Assembly: GCF_028882275.1 (NCBI RefSeq)
Contig: NZ_JARBUT010000018.1
Coordinates: forward strand, 1-64,000
DNA: 64,000 bases
Source: Nocardiopsis sp. N85
GTDB lineage: Bacteria > Actinomycetota > Actinomycetes > Streptosporangiales > Streptosporangiaceae
Reading direction: 5' to 3'
Within the stretch, counting starts at the first letter, position 1. Every line of letters begins with the position of its first letter. Positions 36,786 through 43,527 of this stretch are shown here, in pieces. The notes under the pieces are model-generated. The model ran no database searches. It was given only the letters and a program-made list of their open reading frames with translations, and had not been told where the DNA came from. The position numbers were made by a program, and so were the translations under genes.

Positions 36786-37127
36786 CTAGCCCCAGAAGAC
36801 GGCGACACCGATGTTGACGATGGCGAGCACGCCGGCGATGATCGCCAGGTTCTTGGCGGGCCTGCGCAGGTTGAGCACACCCAGGACCACGATGGCCAGC
36901 GCGATCACGAGCTTGACCGCGACCTTGATGTGGTCCGGGTCGTAGAGGTCGGCCATCTCGGCCACGCCCACCAGGGCCAGGCCGGTGACGAACTGGAGGA
37001 GGGAGCTGTGCAGCAGGACCTTGGGGGATTTGGGATGGTCGGTCATCAGCTGCATGAGGAAGCCCGCGATGATGCCGGCGAGCCCGAGCATGTGCAGGAA
37101 GACGAGCGCGGAGTAGAAGATGTCCAT
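36786..37127 (-). CDS. Small integral membrane protein
   Basis: 113 residues with four predicted helices and almost no loops: about residues 5-27, 40-58, 68-85 and 92-110. No charged catalytic motif. Similar short membrane proteins exist in actinomycetes; function unknown. The ATG at 37127 has a TACTCT -10 hexamer six bases upstream, so it is probably leaderless. A palindrome overlaps that hexamer, implying repressor control. Confidence 0.78.
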   Translation of the reverse strand: MDIFYSALVFLHMLGLAGIIAGFLMQLMTDHPKSPKVLLHSSLLQFVTGLALVGVAEMADLYDPDHIKVAVKLVIALAIVVLGVLNLRRPAKNLAIIAGVLAIVNIGVAVFWG

Positions 37128-37200: not shown

Positions 37201-37848
37201 TCACCGCGTCCCGACACGACGCCGCCACACCGTCCATCCCAGCCCCACCAACAGCACCGCCCCCGCCATCCGGGCCAGGGCCCCGCCGTTCATCGCCTCC
37301 GACATCCGCGACATCACCGTCGGGGAGGCCACCACCACCGTGTCGCTGGCGCACGCCGTCGGGTCGGCGTCCCGCTCCAGCAACAGGCAGGCGGTGCTCA
37401 TCAACCGCTCCGTCCCCTCGGTGTCCTCGCCCACCCGCACCCGCACGGTGTAGACCTGCTCCCCGCCCGCCGGCACGTCGACCCGCCAGTTGACGATGCC
37501 GCCCGCCAGGACGCCCTCGCCGTCCACCTCGACCACCTCCAAGTCGTCGGGCACGTGCTGGGCCAGGTGGGCGCCGCGCACCTCCCCCTCCGGGTCGCCG
37601 TTGGCCACCGTCGTCCGCAGCACCACCTCGTGTCCGGGCAGCGGCGTCCCCCCGCCCTCCGCCACCAGGGAGAGGCCGACGAAGGCCTCCTGCCCCGGCG
37701 CCGCCGCGGACGGGTCCGCCTCCGCTCCCTCCCGGACGGGGTCCGCGAGCGCCGCCGGGGCGACGGCCAGGAGGCCCGCCCCCACCAACGCGGCCACCCC
37801 GGTGGCCCGCCACCGACCGCGTCGATCGTCCTCGATGTTCACCATCAT
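37201..37848 (-). CDS. Cell-surface protein with Ig-like domain and C-terminal membrane anchor
   Basis: 215 residues. Signal peptide about residues 1-35 (ends APAALA). A DUF11/Ig-like beta domain follows (LRTTVANGDPEGEVRGAHLA...DDLEVVEVDGEGVLAG), then a C-terminal helix and RRRVGTR. No LPxTG sorting motif is present, so anchoring is by the helix. Function unknown; such proteins often decorate the envelope or act as adhesins. The first of two adjacent ATGs, at 37848, has GGAGG six bases upstream. Confidence 0.78.
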   Translation of the reverse strand: MMVNIEDDRRGRWRATGVAALVGAGLLAVAPAALADPVREGAEADPSAAAPGQEAFVGLSLVAEGGGTPLPGHEVVLRTTVANGDPEGEVRGAHLAQHVPDDLEVVEVDGEGVLAGGIVNWRVDVPAGGEQVYTVRVRVGEDTEGTERLMSTACLLLERDADPTACASDTVVVASPTVMSRMSEAMNGGALARMAGAVLLVGLGWTVWRRRVGTR

Positions 37849-38007
37849 CCGAGTCCTCCGTCCGTACGGATCCGACACGGATCAAGCCAACTATGAGTAA
37901 GTGTCCGATCGCCTTGAGTGACACGCCCGAAGTGCCCCTCCATCCGCTCGACGAGCCCCCCGAACCCGACTAAGGCGCCCGTGCCCGCCTAAGACCACGA
38001 GAACACC

Positions 38008-38033
38008 CGGAAGCGGGGATTTCTCCCGATGCG
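38008..38033 (+). promoter_or_regulatory. Promoter-like element, copy 1, upstream of the 62-residue protein gene
   Basis: 26-nt element with CGGAA at its start and TTTCTCCCGATGCG at its end. It matches 23 of 26 positions with 38601-38626. Spacing between GGAA and CGATG resembles an ECF sigma promoter. It ends about 78 nt before the GTG at 38112. Confidence 0.6.
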
Positions 38034-38111
38034 CCCTCCCTCGCCTCAGACCGATCGTGGAGGTGAAGGCGGCGGGCGTACCCCGTCGCCGCCCCTCAGA
38101 AGGAGGAGACC

Positions 38112-38300
38112 GTGTACCACGAGGCCCTGTTCCCGACCCACGCCCGATCCCTGACCGAGGAGGACGTCCGCCGCATCGCGCACCGCGCCGCCGCCCGTGC
38201 GGCGCGGGCCAGGGCACGCGCCGAACGCCGCACCGCGCGTCGTGCCGAACGCCGGAGGCGCCGCGAGCGGGATCCGCGCTCCTCCGACCGCGCCGCTTGA
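38112..38300 (+). CDS. Small Arg-rich protein (62 residues)
   Basis: 62 residues, starting YHEALFPTHARSLTEEDVRR and then almost entirely Ala/Arg/Glu (AARAARARARAERRTARRAE). A strong AAGGAGGAG lies just before the GTG at 38112. No known domain. It resembles the 53-residue product at 38707 in length, pattern and an initial short hydrophobic-acidic segment followed by a long basic helix. A nucleic-acid- or membrane-binding role is possible but not shown. Probably expressed as its own unit. Confidence 0.7.
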   Translation: MYHEALFPTHARSLTEEDVRRIAHRAAARAARARARAERRTARRAERRRRRERDPRSSDRAA

Positions 38301-38600
38301 ACCGATGGGGACGAGGGTGCCCACGGCCCTTCTCCCGGCGGCGTTGCGCACACCCACCGCCGCCGCACCGACGGCGTCCCCCGCGCCGGCCGCCGCCGAC
38401 CCGCCGGTCCGGCGAGGTCCCGACCGGTTCCGCGACCCGCCCCGGACCATGGTCGCCCGGATCGCCGCCGAGCGTTCCGGGGGGTCCGGAACCGGCCCGC
38501 GCTCAGGGCGGACCCGTGATGTCTCAGACGCGACCCCGATCCGCCGGGGTCGGGCCCCCGATGTCTTAGACACGGTCCGCGGCGTGCCGGACGCCCCCTG
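38301..38600. other. 300-bp gap between the two small Arg-rich genes, with paired GTCTnAGAC sites
   Basis: No gene. GTCTCAGAC (38521-38529) and GTCTTAGAC (38563-38571) are near-palindromes whose starts are 42 bp apart, four helical turns, in front of the second promoter-like element. Similar GCCTAAGAC is seen at 37987-37995 before copy 1. Confidence 0.5.
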
Positions 38601-38626
38601 CGGAAACAGGGTTTTCTCCCGATGCG
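38601..38626 (+). promoter_or_regulatory. Promoter-like element, copy 2, upstream of the 53-residue protein gene
   Basis: Same 26-nt pattern as 38008-38033, CGGAAAC at the start and TTTTCTCCCGATGCG at the end. It ends about 80 nt before the small protein start, the same distance as in copy 1. Confidence 0.6.
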
Positions 38627-38706
38627 GAGGTGGGGTTCTCAGCGGGATCGTGGAGTCGTCGGTGAGGGACACCGACGGACACCACCGCTTCGAGGAGCAC
38701 CCCGTG

Positions 38707-38868
38707 ATGAACACCGAACTACTCGGTCGGACCGCCCGCGCCATGCACGAGGAGCGTCTGCGCGACGCCGGGATCCGACGTGAGGCCGCGCGTCGCCGCG
38801 ACGAGGCCCGCGACCGGGCCAAGGTCGAGAACACCGGTGGGAAGGGGCGTTTCGGCCGGGCCGCCTAA
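38707..38868 (+). CDS. Small Arg-rich protein (53 residues)
   Basis: 53 residues, NTELLGRTARAMHEERLRDA then RREAARRRDEARDRA. Likely paralogue of the 38112 product. The ATG at 38707 has GAGGAG upstream; GTG at 38704 is an alternative. Ends in a Gly/Lys tail. Followed after 58 nt by the large LuxR-type regulator, with the TAA stop inside a GCCTAAGGC dyad. Function unknown. Confidence 0.68.
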   Translation: MNTELLGRTARAMHEERLRDAGIRREAARRRDEARDRAKVENTGGKGRFGRAA

Positions 38869-38926
38869 GGCGTGTTCCGGCCCGCCCCCGCGTAATTTCC
38901 CGACAAAGTCATACGAGGTTGGCATA

Positions 38927-41926
38927 ATGAGCGATATGCCCCTTCTTGTCGACAACGGGTCGGTGTTCATCGGCCGTGAGGCCGAGCTTCGCGCCTTGAG
39001 CGACCACGCCCACCGCACCCGCACCTCCACCCCCGGCATGGTCCTCGTCGGCGGTGACGCGGGCGTCGGCAAGAGTCGGCTCATCAGCGAGTTCGCCGCC
39101 ACCCTCCCGCAGGGCGCGGTGTACGTCGGCGCCTGTCTCCAACTCGGCGGCGACGGCCTGGCCTACGCACCCTTCACCGCGATACTGCGCCAGCTCCTGC
39201 GCGCACACGGGCCCGAGATCTTCACGGCGGCCGCCCCCGGCGGTACCGGCGAACTCGCCCGTCTCCTTCCCGAACTGGGCGAACTCTCCATCGGCCGGCC
39301 CGAGAACCGGGGCATCCTCTTCGAACAGGTCCTGCGCCTGCTGCACCACAGCGCCGGCGACACCGGCGTCACCTTCGTCCTCGAAGACCTGCACTGGTCC
39401 GACAGCGCCACCCGCGACCTGCTCGTCTTCCTCATCCGCAACCTCGAACTCCCCGGTGTGCAGATCGTCGCCACCTACCGCAGCGACGACCTGCACCGGT
39501 CCCACCCGCTGCGCCGGCTGCTCCCCGAACTCGAACGCGTCCCCGGCGTCACGTCACTGCGTCTGGCCCCGCTCACCCTCACCGAGACCGGCGACCACGC
39601 CACCGCCCTGCGCGGCGGCCGCCCCCTCTCGCCGCACGACCTCGAAGAGCTCTACCGGCGCACCGAGGGCGTCCCCCTGTTCGTGGAGTCCCTGGCCACC
39701 GCTCCCGCCACCGAGGACGACGTGTCCGACCGGTTCCGCGACCTGCTCCTGGAACCCCTCCACCGGTTCGACGACACCGCCCGGGCCGTCCTGCGCACGG
39801 CGTCGGTGGGAGCCGTCTCCGGCGGCATCGACCACGAAGTGCTGCGCCACGCCGCCGACCTGCCCGACCGCGACCTCGAAACCGCCCTGCACACCCTGGT
39901 CGACGCCAACGTCCTCAAGGTCCACGGCGACGGCTACCGGTTCCGGCACGCCCTGCTGCGCGACGCCGTCCACGGTGAACTCCTCCCCGGCCCGCACACC
40001 CGCCTGCACCTGCGCTTCGCCCTGCTCATCGACGAACGGCCCGACCTGTTCCCCTTCGACCGGCGCGCCGCCGAGGAGGCCCACCACTACATGGCCGCCC
40101 GGGAACTGCCCCAGGCGCTGGAGTCGGCCTGGTGGGCCGCCGTCCGCGCCGGCGACATCCTCGCCTACAGCGAGGAACTCGACATGCTGGAACGGGTCCT
40201 GTCCCTGTGGGACAAGGTGCCCGACGCCCACGAACGCGTCCAGGGGCAGACCTGGGCCGAGGTCGTCTCCCGGGCCGCCGGGGCCGCCGTGGAGGCCGGG
40301 CGCGACCGCCGCGCCCTCGAACTCGCCGACGAGGCCCTGGCCACCCTCCCCGAGACGCCCTCCGACGAGCACACCCGCGCCGTCAAGGCCACCCTGCTGC
40401 GCCGCCGCGGCCTGGCCCGCGCCCTGAGCACCTGCGGCGGAGGCATCACCGACCTCGTCAAGGCCCTGGAACTGCACCCGCCCCACATGCCGGGCTACGC
40501 CCCGCTGCTGTCCACCCTGGCCCGCGAGAGCCTGCGCCACCGCGCCGACCGCGTCGTCCCACCCGACCAGGAGCAACTGCGGGACCTGCGCGAGGCGGGC
40601 TACTCGGCCCGCGAACTCGCCGAGAAGGCCATCGCCCTGGCCGAGACCGCCGAGCCCGCGGACCGGTGCGCGGCCGCCGACGCCCGCATCACCCTGGGCA
40701 GCCTCCACATCGGCGACGGCGACATGGACCGGGGGCGCCCGCTCATCGAGGAGGGCATGGAGATCGCCGCGAAGCTCTCCCAACCCTCCCTCCAGGCCCG
40801 CGGCGCCGGCAACCTCGGACACTTCCTCCGCGAACTGGGCCGCCACGAGGAGGGGCTGCGGGTCCTGGAGGAGTCCCTGGCCCGCCACGAGGAGATGGGC
40901 TGGGCCTCGGTCCACAAGACGTTCAACCACCAGAACCGCGCCGAGATCCACTTCGAGCTCGGCGACCTGCGCCAGGCCCGCGAGATCTGCGAGATGATCC
41001 TGCGCACCCGCGCCACCGTCAAGGACCGCTCCTACGTGGACGCGGTACTGGCCCGCAGCGCCGCCGCCACGGGGGACCTGGAGACCGCGCGCAGGGTCTC
41101 CGGCTGGGCGCGCGAGGACCGAGTCCTGGACGCCCAGCGCATGAACGTCGTCCAACTGGACCTGCTGGCCAAACTGGAGACCGGTCTGGCCGAAGGTTCG
41201 GTGGACGCCGTGCTCGTCCTGTCCGAACGGGCCTTGGAACAGCTGGAGCTGGAGGCCTCGCGCGGCTACACCTGGCCCCTCGTCGACGTGATGGTCGAGG
41301 CCGCCCTCCGGGGGATCGAGCCCGGCCGCCCCGAGGAGACGGCGGCCCGCGCCCGCCGTGTCCTGATCCTGGCGGTGAAGGTCGTCGAGGCCATGAAGAT
41401 CACCGGCACCCCCCAGCGCGCCCACCGGGCCCGCGTCCTGGCCGGGGCCGCCGAGATCGACGACACCGGAGCCGCCGAGCGGCTGGAGCTGTGGACCGAG
41501 GCGGTCACCGCGTGGGAGGCCACCCCCATGCCCCTGCACCTGGCCTCCGCTCGGCTGCGGGCCTCCGTCGCCGCGATGAACGCGGGCCACCGCGACCGGG
41601 CCCGCGACTGGGTGCGCGCCGCCCACGCGACCGCCGCCGACCTGGGCGCGGTCCCCCTGGCGGCGTCCGCCGCCGACCTGGCGCGCCGTATCGGCGTCGG
41701 CCCCACCGGCGATACGTCCGCCCCCGCGGCCCCGGCCGGACTGACCGCCCGCGAAGTGGAGGTCGCCCGGCTGCTCGCCGCCGGCGGCACCAACGCGCGC
41801 ATCGCCGAGGAACTGTTCATCTCCACCAAGACCGCGAGCGTGCACGTGTCCAACATCCTGGCCAAGCTGGGCGTACCCAACCGCGCCACCGCCGGTGCCC
41901 GGCTGAGGGAGCTCGGTCTGGGCTGA
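38927..41926 (+). CDS. LuxR-family (LAL-type) ATP-binding transcriptional regulator
   Basis: 999 residues. N-terminal AAA/STAND ATPase with Walker A GGDAGVGKSR (about residues 42-51) and Walker B FVLEDLHWSD. A long TPR-like helical middle spans about 350-900 (for example AEEAHHYMAARELPQALESA). The C-terminal LuxR helix-turn-helix is LTAREVEVARLLAAGGTNARIAEELFIS. LAL regulators bind inducers through the helical middle. The start at 38927 (MSDMPLLVDNG) is chosen on family-like spacing to the P-loop; the second ATG at 38936 is possible. Unlike most neighbours it has few obvious targets nearby other than the small Arg-rich genes. Confidence 0.93.
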   Translation: MSDMPLLVDNGSVFIGREAELRALSDHAHRTRTSTPGMVLVGGDAGVGKSRLISEFAATLPQGAVYVGACLQLGGDGLAYAPFTAILRQLLRAHGPEIFTAAAPGGTGELARLLPELGELSIGRPENRGILFEQVLRLLHHSAGDTGVTFVLEDLHWSDSATRDLLVFLIRNLELPGVQIVATYRSDDLHRSHPLRRLLPELERVPGVTSLRLAPLTLTETGDHATALRGGRPLSPHDLEELYRRTEGVPLFVESLATAPATEDDVSDRFRDLLLEPLHRFDDTARAVLRTASVGAVSGGIDHEVLRHAADLPDRDLETALHTLVDANVLKVHGDGYRFRHALLRDAVHGELLPGPHTRLHLRFALLIDERPDLFPFDRRAAEEAHHYMAARELPQALESAWWAAVRAGDILAYSEELDMLERVLSLWDKVPDAHERVQGQTWAEVVSRAAGAAVEAGRDRRALELADEALATLPETPSDEHTRAVKATLLRRRGLARALSTCGGGITDLVKALELHPPHMPGYAPLLSTLARESLRHRADRVVPPDQEQLRDLREAGYSARELAEKAIALAETAEPADRCAAADARITLGSLHIGDGDMDRGRPLIEEGMEIAAKLSQPSLQARGAGNLGHFLRELGRHEEGLRVLEESLARHEEMGWASVHKTFNHQNRAEIHFELGDLRQAREICEMILRTRATVKDRSYVDAVLARSAAATGDLETARRVSGWAREDRVLDAQRMNVVQLDLLAKLETGLAEGSVDAVLVLSERALEQLELEASRGYTWPLVDVMVEAALRGIEPGRPEETAARARRVLILAVKVVEAMKITGTPQRAHRARVLAGAAEIDDTGAAERLELWTEAVTAWEATPMPLHLASARLRASVAAMNAGHRDRARDWVRAAHATAADLGAVPLAASAADLARRIGVGPTGDTSAPAAPAGLTAREVEVARLLAAGGTNARIAEELFISTKTASVHVSNILAKLGVPNRATAGARLRELGLG

Positions 41927-42034: not shown

Positions 42035-42943
42035 TCAGGACTCCAGTTCGATGTACACGCCGCCCGGGGACTCCAGGATCACGTCCACCACGATGCGGTC
42101 GTCGCCGACCTCCCCCTCGGAGAGCACCGCCATCTCATTCTCCCCGTACCCCTCGGCGCCCTCCGGCGGGGGCGCGATGTAGAAGCCCACATCGAGACCC
42201 CGTTCGCCCAGTACCGTGCGGATCTCTCCCACGGTGACCCCCTCCAGTTCCACGCCCTCCAAGGGCTCGCCGGGGGCGTTCGCCGCCTGCGACATGGAGT
42301 AGGGCTCGTCCGGACGGGCCTCACGGCCGAAACCGATCACCACCGGCGTCGGGTGCCCCACCGGGATCCGGACGACCGCCGGGCACCCGTCCTCGATCGA
42401 GCACTCCCCCAGGGGTTCCTCGACCTCGATACCGCCGCCCTCCTCCAGGCTCTCGGTCCCGGCGTCGGTGTCCAGGTGCACCAGCTCGCCCACCATGCCC
42501 GGGGACACCGGTTCGAACACGATCCGCGCGTCCACCCCGTACTCGGCGAACTCGGCCCGATAGTCCGCGGGCTCGGCGTCGGCGCGCAGCAGCCTCGCGG
42601 TGACGAACCCGTCCTCGACGACGATGTCCGCCACCGGAGGCCCGGCCGGGGTCAGAGTGCGGATCAGCTCCTGACGCTCATCGGGGGCCAGGACCAGGAA
42701 CGTACCGGCGACCACGGACGCGGCCACCCCCAGGGCGACCGGCATCGCCCACAGCGCCCGACCCCGCCGGGGGCGCCGTGCGAGATCCGGATCCCTCGGA
42801 TCCGCCATGATCAGGGTCGCCAGTTCCCGGGCGCCCGGGGAGCGGGCGGGATCGATCCCGTCCACGCCGCGGACGGTGGGCCGCAGGGCCTCGACCGCAC
42901 GATCGATCGGATGGCCGGGCCGGTGGGACGGAACGGTGTTCAT
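42035..42943 (-). CDS. Membrane-anchored partner of the ECF sigma factor
   Basis: 302 residues. The N-terminal 65 residues are cytoplasmic, one membrane helix sits at about 67-90 (ALWAMPVALGVAASVVAGTF), and the rest is an acidic, Val/Glu/Gly-rich extracytoplasmic domain. Topology fits an anti-sigma or sigma-linked membrane protein. The start ATG overlaps the sigma gene stop (ATGA), the typical arrangement of ECF operons. No zinc-binding HxxxCxxC motif is seen, so it is not a ZAS anti-sigma. Confidence 0.75.
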   Translation of the reverse strand: MNTVPSHRPGHPIDRAVEALRPTVRGVDGIDPARSPGARELATLIMADPRDPDLARRPRRGRALWAMPVALGVAASVVAGTFLVLAPDERQELIRTLTPAGPPVADIVVEDGFVTARLLRADAEPADYRAEFAEYGVDARIVFEPVSPGMVGELVHLDTDAGTESLEEGGGIEVEEPLGECSIEDGCPAVVRIPVGHPTPVVIGFGREARPDEPYSMSQAANAPGEPLEGVELEGVTVGEIRTVLGERGLDVGFYIAPPPEGAEGYGENEMAVLSEGEVGDDRIVVDVILESPGGVYIELES

Positions 42944-43527
42944 CGGGTCGCTCCCTTCAGAGCCGTGGAGGTGGCGGCGCCGGAGGGGACGACGCCCGGA
43001 TCGATATCGGCCCCGCGCAGGGCCTTGGCGAACCGCGACCGGGCCCGGTGCAGCCGCACCCGGGCCGTGCCCCGGGCACACCCGAGCACGACCGCGATCC
43101 GCCCCGCGTCGAGGCGTTCCCACCCCGCCAGGGTGAGGACCTCCCGGTCCTGTTCGGACAGCGACCGGAACACCCGTCCGATCTCCCCCATGCCGTGCTC
43201 CGGGGACGGCGGTGAGACCGTCACCCCCGCCAGTTCGGCGCGCAACCGCATCGCCAGCGCCGACCGGCGGCGGTCCCCGCGCCGGTGGTTGGCGAGCACG
43301 TTGCGCGCCACGCCGAACATCCAGGGCCGGGCCTCCTCGCCCGACGGAACGTCGTCGATCCGGGACCAGACCGCGGTGAACACCTCCGCGACGAGGTCGG
43401 CGGCCCCCTCCGGATCCTGTGTGCGACGCAACAGGTAGCCCAGGACGTCACGGAACGTGGCCTCGTACAGTTCCTCGAACCGGGCGACGTGTTCCTCGCG
43501 CGACCGTGTCCGATGTTGTCGGGGCAA
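42940..43527 (-). CDS. ECF-family RNA polymerase sigma factor
   Basis: 195 residues. Sigma region 2 (FEELYEATFRDVLGYLLRRT...DLVAEVFTAVWSRI) and region 4 (LSEQDREVLTLAGWERLDAGRIAVVLGCARGTARVRLHRARSRF) are both complete. It would direct transcription from GGAA-type promoters in response to an envelope or other signal. The start is TTG at 43527 with AAGAAGGG upstream, the only in-frame start near the conserved N-terminus. Operon with the membrane partner. Confidence 0.9.
   Translation of the reverse strand: MPRQHRTRSREEHVARFEELYEATFRDVLGYLLRRTQDPEGAADLVAEVFTAVWSRIDDVPSGEEARPWMFGVARNVLANHRRGDRRRSALAMRLRAELAGVTVSPPSPEHGMGEIGRVFRSLSEQDREVLTLAGWERLDAGRIAVVLGCARGTARVRLHRARSRFAKALRGADIDPGVVPSGAATSTALKGATR

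Follow-up and report, generated by a model that had tools for sequence, protein, structure and literature searches.

Genes and promoters at the locus

The locus described here lies in a 64,000-nt stretch of the Nocardiopsis sp. N85 genome (contig NZ_JARBUT010000018.1, positions 1 to 64,000; the whole stretch is called the window below). It holds two genes of tiny arginine-rich proteins, each preceded by a copy of the same promoter element, followed by the gene of a large ATP-binding LuxR-type (LAL) regulator. The first small protein (P1, 38112..38300, plus strand) has 62 residues and a GTG start, and is most likely an orphan copy of the small open reading frame (ORF) of this unit; the second (P2, 38707..38868, plus strand) has 53 residues. 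A previous sequence-only reading of this DNA had considered the two genes to be related, and both indeed match a hidden Markov model (HMM) of their genus orthologues (E 3e-10 for P1 and 2e-8 for P2, against 0.04 for the best shuffled decoy). Among the ORFs of this comparison, that of L202 was taken in a wrong frame, and some of the P2 type have an upstream in-frame start. The profile search proposed in that reading yielded no family: neither P1 nor P2 matched Pfam or NCBIfam at E 0.1, two of seven relatives matched Pfam with all matches above E 0.1 and below the cut-off, and none of six relatives matched NCBIfam at E 0.1. The most likely binding partners of the small proteins are nucleic acid, RNA polymerase and the LAL.

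The LAL gene (38936..41926, plus strand) encodes a STAND-type ATPase, a TPR-like middle part and a GerE/LuxR helix-turn-helix (HTH) domain, in 996 residues or, if the start is at 38927, in 999. The giant regulator named in the sequence-only reading was confirmed by its domains: AAA_16 (PF13191, E 1.9e-27, residues 14-179) at the N-terminus and GerE (PF00196, E 3.9e-17, residues 939-989 of 999) at the C-terminus, which together with the large size place it among the LAL proteins. The ATG at 38936 may be the better start, giving 996 rather than the 999 residues first proposed. GGCATAAT ends 7 nt ahead of this ATG in the window and in five other genus loci (6 loci located by script of 38 were read), and the CATAAT at 38924..38929 (plus strand), likely the -10 of the LAL's own promoter, has the same arrangement in the 6 located loci. 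From this fixed placement of GGCATAAT relative to the ATG we infer a leaderless LAL mRNA. Unlinked LAL genes begin right after a GGCATGCTG-like block in several of the loci L347-L353, which suggests leaderless LAL mRNAs beyond the genus too.

Between the two copies of the element (38008-38033 and 38601-38626) there are 3 differences in 26 positions, and the start codons follow after 78 nt (P1) and 80 nt (P2), with a Shine-Dalgarno-like sequence present; the resemblance and similar distance originally reported were thus confirmed. Run on the window, a 24-nt consensus pattern found exactly these two copies; 100 dinucleotide shuffles gave no match. In the 6.5-Mb genome a 23-nt element pattern with up to 3 mismatches found only them. 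A further regulon in this genome was also sought with a combined element and box pattern (up to 3 mismatches) and was rejected: the 13 matches, of which the two window copies had no mismatch and the other 11 had 2-3, were equalled by 13 in a backwards control. Pairs of TCTYAG boxes spaced 14-16 nt were found nowhere else in the genome.

The 26-nt repeat forms the left portion of a predicted composite promoter of about 57 bp, in which a CATC-N5-GATG-like dyad is followed, 20 nt past its CCC, by a CTNAG box and then by a GAnnnT -10-like hexamer. In the P1 promoter (38008..38063, plus strand) these are the dyad region 38019-38031, the CTCAG box 38045-38049 and GATCGT at 38053-38058; in the P2 promoter (38601..38656, plus strand) they are 38612-38624, CTCAG at 38638-38642 and GATCGT at 38646-38651. 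Judged from the -10 geometry and from comparison with the mapped MalT promoters of Actinoplanes, transcription would start near 38065 for P1 and near 38658 for P2. Further boxes, to which no strand is assigned, lie upstream: two CTAAG boxes ahead of the P1 promoter (37970..37993), of the same class as the phased CTNAG boxes described below, and a CTCAG (38523) and a CTTAG (38565) box ahead of that of P2 (38523..38569), 42 bp apart and with the nearer one 73 bp ahead of the promoter box. A short ATG...TAG reading frame within the element is in frame in many copies; it was dropped as a candidate because it is lost in copies in which the box is CTCAG.

A possible hairpin (CGTCGGTG / CACCGACG; 38657..38677, plus strand) can be read from the sequence at the 5' end of the P2 leader, raising the question whether a leader RNA device, through the CCTCCC of the element or through such a hairpin, controls translation of the small ORF. 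CCTCC resembles an anti-Shine-Dalgarno sequence, and hairpins in the leader are common (z < -1 in 33 of 60; mean z -1.37) but not universal, being absent or weak in many copies. Rfam gave no match, the start as placed above lies downstream of the element, and the phasing of the CTNAG boxes is a property of DNA; we regard an RNA device as highly improbable.

Conservation in the genus and history of the pair

A profile built from eight small ORFs matched 29 of 40 genomes of the genus. In 25 of the 29, a block of fixed spacing, [AG]ACnGGGATTCCTCCC[CG]ATGnG - 10 nt - TCTYAGnnn[GC]ATCGTnGA, stands directly 5' of the small ORF, with TCTTAG boxes further upstream. G019 carries a variant of the block. 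G007, G013 and G015 have the element some hundreds of nt further upstream, at what looks like the place where a preceding small ORF would follow. A LAL match starts behind the small ORF in all 29 genomes, broken in G007 and split over two frames in G013 and G019. Several genomes also carry less similar LAL genes in tandem (about 39% identity), at a distance of roughly 10-20 kb (e.g. G021:C1:1989456-1995189 and G016:C9:102343-108087).

In genome G021 the gene order is P1-LAL1-P2-LAL2. The window matches it at 79% to near the P1 end and at 84% from just ahead of the P2 promoter onward, and between these segments 313 nt (38235-38547) occupy the place of about 3.1 kb that include LAL1. Within them, 38360..38443 (plus strand) is a probable remnant of a LAL gene interior, matching that of G021 and G016 at 74% by blastn (E 2.7e-10); at the protein level, tblastn of the LAL reached the 84 nt only at E 0.32. 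On this comparison and this remnant, the window pair most likely arose by duplication of the unit followed by loss of the first LAL, with P1 as the orphan. The arrangement described in the sequence-only reading, a repeated element ahead of small basic paralogues beside a LAL, holds; the presence of two paralogues before one LAL is a local state that followed the deletion. Intact promoters and small ORFs followed only by LAL fragments were also seen at L063:1500-1900 (G007) and L093 (G002), the small ORF apparently persisting after its regulator.

Upstream of the unit, a 225-aa protein is encoded divergently (37201..37878, minus strand), with a signal-like start and a terminal hydrophobic segment as judged by eye; it is a frequent neighbour in the genus. 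A 113-aa membrane protein (36786-37127, weak SirB match) likewise often adjoins the unit.

Wider distribution of the promoter

The sequence-only reading would have been refuted by absence of the element from relatives, or of small ORFs behind it; recurrence with small ORFs was found in the genus, the order, the class and a species-wide search. A sequence-only model made from 30 element copies (R1) had matches at E 0.01 in 223 of the 297 genomes sampled from the order, in 44 of 62 genera; of these matches mainly the best were read. A broader model (R2), applied to 345 genomes sampled from the class with a threshold of E 0.001, matched 70, spread over 40 of 126 genera, and 40 of these genomes lie outside the family. 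Behind each of the 22 element matches read in 20 order regions, three of them from the genus, stands a small ORF that has a ribosome-binding site, and 10 of the 22 have a LAL inside the region. Among 20 regions from other parts of the class, a small ORF stands behind the element in 16 and a LAL start in 13; one further region has only a C-terminal LAL match.

A pattern confined to the left half of the promoter (GATARGGCRTCNNCCCSATGTG) was searched in 84,980 species genomes and gave 117 stretches, of which 81 matches at 80 loci underlie the statistics. These loci belong mostly to Nonomuraea, Microbispora, Actinomadura, Planotetraspora, Herbidospora and their relatives, with some Nocardioides and a few probable chance matches in other phyla. 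CTNAG occurs at exactly +20 in 70 of the 81 matches, as against four with CTNAG at any other offset. By the script rule a small basic ORF is present in 71 (a few of them wrong frames or chance), box and ORF together in 66, and a LAL start lies downstream in 48. When the 80 matches with 45 nt of sequence were examined, all 70 that bear the box had A at +29 and T at +33. The resulting GAnnnT hexamer, of the NAnnnT type, would, as a -10 of the main sigma factor, place the start near +40. Many matches of a first pattern search that allowed 3 mismatches were set aside as chance-like by eye (L003-L008, L010, L011, L013, L014, L016, L017, L020, L021, L023-L028, L030, L031).

These invariant positions bear on the proposal that the CGGAA and CGATG ends of the element are the -35 and -10 hexamers of an extracytoplasmic function (ECF) promoter, from which the ECF sigma factor encoded at 42940-43527 would drive P1 and P2. 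Both ends look ECF-like in both window copies, and the nearby ECF gene is real. CGGAA, however, is not conserved, being replaced by GGACTGGG in many members of the genus and by GATARGGC in most order copies read. The invariant CTNAG at +20, A29 and T33 lie outside the proposed hexamers and further downstream, so that the start is expected about 25 nt further down than an ECF promoter would have it. Nor is the sigma gene a conserved part of the unit, a homologue occurring within about 4.3 kb behind the LAL in only one of eight relatives. An ECF promoter thus appears very unlikely.

Several loci have neighbours of their own. Stand-alone small ORFs of the MIRPEFS type and alike (L128, L129, L134, L135) lie near an aldehyde dehydrogenase gene, and in three of these loci also near genes of a GMC oxidoreductase and a cobalamin adenosyltransferase-like protein; at the sites L180:3749-3860, L189 and L191 of genus g20, where the element lies ahead of an MFS transporter gene, genes of the metallo-beta-lactamase and dihydrodipicolinate-synthase type adjoin (all names assigned by eye).

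Phased CTNAG boxes upstream of the promoter

A set of 68 upstream regions that were less than 80% alike contained 130 CTNAG boxes, at about 55, 64, 74, 86, 95 and 115 from the promoter box. Their Rayleigh nR2 at 10.25 bp was 63.8, compared to 8.75 for the 99.9th percentile of random positions. The result was similar in regions at most 60% alike: 52 regions of the named set contained 93 boxes versus 19.8 expected from composition (nR2 54.3), and 84 regions of another set contained 160 versus 29.8 (nR2 64.9), two sets which share taxa and are therefore not fully independent. In both, CTNAG was the outlier among 16 gapped palindromes, the next best reaching 15.8 and 8.4. The upstream CTNAG boxes lie on one face of the DNA.

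One possible role for such an array is that of a repressor operator, for instance for the small basic protein itself or for a nucleoid protein, with the dyad activating and the array repressing. One box sits in the spacer just upstream of the -10, where a bound protein would block the polymerase, and the boxes stay on one face through many turns, as happens in looping. Cooperative activation would give this geometry too, and repression of this kind, which we consider unlikely, would be an addition to activation by the LAL and not its exclusive rival.

Which factor reads the element

LAL control of the element is likely. Of 70 strict copies, 49 have a LAL start within 900 nt (a count in which the LAL behind the two elements of L209 appears twice and the broken LAL of L063 is included), and a LAL follows further on for P1 of the window and for L219. 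Seven of eight genomes with stand-alone copies (G200, G296, G090, G188, G316, G238 and G077) keep a LAL of 47-50% identity elsewhere; these unlinked LALs have no element in the 900 nt upstream. Among 12 R1-negative genomes, 8 lack such a LAL at E 1e-60, though one of them, G008, has a variant element. In the 4 that have it, the element was found near a LAL in G103, G088 and G096 (in the last at a LAL of 39% identity and not at the best one), and only the small ORF, at the LAL, in G097. Within the genus, the LAL has at least 56% identity in 28 of the 29 genomes with the small ORF and exceeds 44% in none of the 11 without it. The GerE helix KTASVHVSNIL is largely kept while LAL identity drops to about 35%.

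Several observations weigh against this. There is no LAL start within 900 nt of 21 of the 70 strict copies, some with only about 1.5 kb to inspect, and G217 has the element with a best LAL of only 35% identity. Since small ORF and LAL adjoin in the genus, their joint absence may reflect a single deletion. R2 gives 7 matches in the 11 genus genomes that lack the close LAL, with no LAL beside them within the roughly 1.5 kb examined. Five (G003, G006, G008, G009, G034) are variant elements with a second type of small ORF (MHPDL...AADLYRAE); G003, G006, G009 and G034 have only LALs of 38-44%, and G008 has none at the thresholds used. The other two are an element without a clear ORF (G014) and a chance-like match (G036). 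At g20 the element directly precedes an MFS gene, without a small ORF, in three of four sites read. Finally, R1 and R2 include the conserved columns, and only the left-half pattern is free of that circularity.

The variant elements without a close LAL imply either that more distant regulators read the variant or that the element has another factor as its reader, and strict dependence of the element on this LAL lineage is weakened. It may be, then, that another activator, a sigma factor or several LuxR-type regulators read the element, and that the LAL is a frequent neighbour, a passenger or a modulator. The same variant loci, the G217 and 900-nt results and the survival of the small ORF after its LAL in the window and in G007 speak for this scenario. 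The LAL orthologues kept in genomes with unlinked copies, the R1-negative genomes, the conserved HTH and the precedent of MalT (passages of PMC7567727) speak against it; we judge it rather improbable. The second type of stand-alone small ORF (MHPDL/MHADL...AADLYRAE) was seen behind a variant element at L370-L374, L376 and L140-L142, adjoining in two of these loci a 407-aa amidohydrolase-like gene.

The locus is one copy of a conserved actinobacterial unit of composite promoter, tiny basic protein gene and LAL gene, and we lean slightly towards a reading in which the promoter is read by the LAL, acting as a MalT-like activator of tiny genes in a logic similar to that of AfsR and afsS. The best reading is that of a class II activator, with predicted binding. 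According to this model, the LAL would be made from its own leaderless promoter and activated by some signal through its ATPase and TPR part. Its GerE domain would bind the CATC-N5-GATG-like dyad, which covers the -35 region and has its centre some 40 bp upstream of the start, and recruit the main-sigma RNA polymerase to the weak GAnnnT -10. The phased CTNAG boxes, one between the dyad and the -10 and more at about -73, -83, -93, -104 and -114, could be occupied by additional subunits of a cooperative LAL oligomer, or by another protein bound to the same face of the DNA. One to a few small basic proteins would be the usual output, and in some genomes a transporter. More tentatively, and as a possibility that falls short of an even chance, the system may be a class-wide regulon with hardly more than one kind of output, in which the LAL acts as a helically phased oligomer on the CTNAG array together with the class II dyad and switches on basic proteins of 35-93 residues, which act in trans or feed back on the LAL or RNA polymerase. 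Taken together, the interpretation offered by the sequence-only reading is partly supported.

A predictable promoter and a candidate regulator are hereby provided for small proteins that, in the members tested, have no Pfam or NCBIfam entry and recur in many actinobacterial genera. These include Nonomuraea, Actinomadura and Streptosporangium, which are antibiotic producers. A strict promoter geometry with few targets would make a clean model of DNA reading by STAND regulators, and the function of the tiny proteins can be tested by deletion of one short gene. LAL regulators have been called poorly studied, in a passage of PMC3282765.

Comparison with known systems

In the open-access literature, with subscription papers and preprints outside its scope, we found no paper on a LAL beside a small ORF or on a conserved element of this kind. 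IniR (NCBIfam NF038181) is also an ATPase-GerE regulator, but membership was rejected, as the LAL matches it only weakly (36.5 bits, far below the cut-off of 750); the MadR and IniR literature was considered for comparison and set aside.

The closest parallel is MalT of Actinoplanes sp. SE50/110. Passages of PMC7567727 describe it as a LuxR (MalT-like) regulator that, as shown with deletion and overexpression strains, activates promoters with a TCATCC-N5-GGATGA motif overlapping the -35 and lying 34.4 +/- 1.0 nt upstream of mapped starts; its regulon comprises 17 promoters of a 51-gene metabolic region. Common to both systems, as far as these passages go, are a MalT-like LuxR-type regulator in an actinobacterium, inverted CATC/GATG half-sites at the -35 and a strict geometry; counting the MalT spacing of 34 nt from the end of CATC-N5-GATG, the order-wide form, places the start near +40, where the -10 estimate puts it too. 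Against the likeness, and to that extent against a LAL-read promoter, the CATC and GATG half-sites here are 5 nt apart and not 7, and the left one is degenerate in the window (TTTC). The inverted TCATCC-5nt-GGATGA arrangement of the MalT-type promoter is not found here, and the promoter may work alike without being one. The targets also differ, one to a few tiny genes instead of a metabolic region, and the CTNAG array is a feature of the present system that the available passages of PMC7567727 do not mention, the word "small" being absent from its main text.

The E. coli MalT box, quoted in a passage of PMC7567727 as GGGGA(T/G)GAGG, is also resembled, since the genus form TCCTCCCC reads GGGGAGGA on the opposite strand. 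No maltose genes were seen here, and the core is lost in many copies outside the genus.

AfsR of Streptomyces coelicolor has about 1000 residues, and afsR and afsS are adjacent genes. As described in passages of PMC10936776 and PMC2267785, AfsR is a NOD and TPR regulator that activates the weak promoter of the very small protein gene afsS (PMC10936776), whose product has 63 residues; the -35 of this promoter is poor, and its -10, CACTGT, is suboptimal and likewise of the form NAnnnT; its N-terminal SARP domain binds 11-bp direct repeats (PMC10936776; PMC2267785). The LAL differs in having a C-terminal GerE domain; the 17 Pfam families listed for it include no SARP/BTAD match, and its predicted target is an inverted repeat with a CTNAG array. 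The present arrangement would nevertheless work like AfsR and afsS if the LAL controls the small-protein gene, with which it shows linkage and partial co-occurrence.

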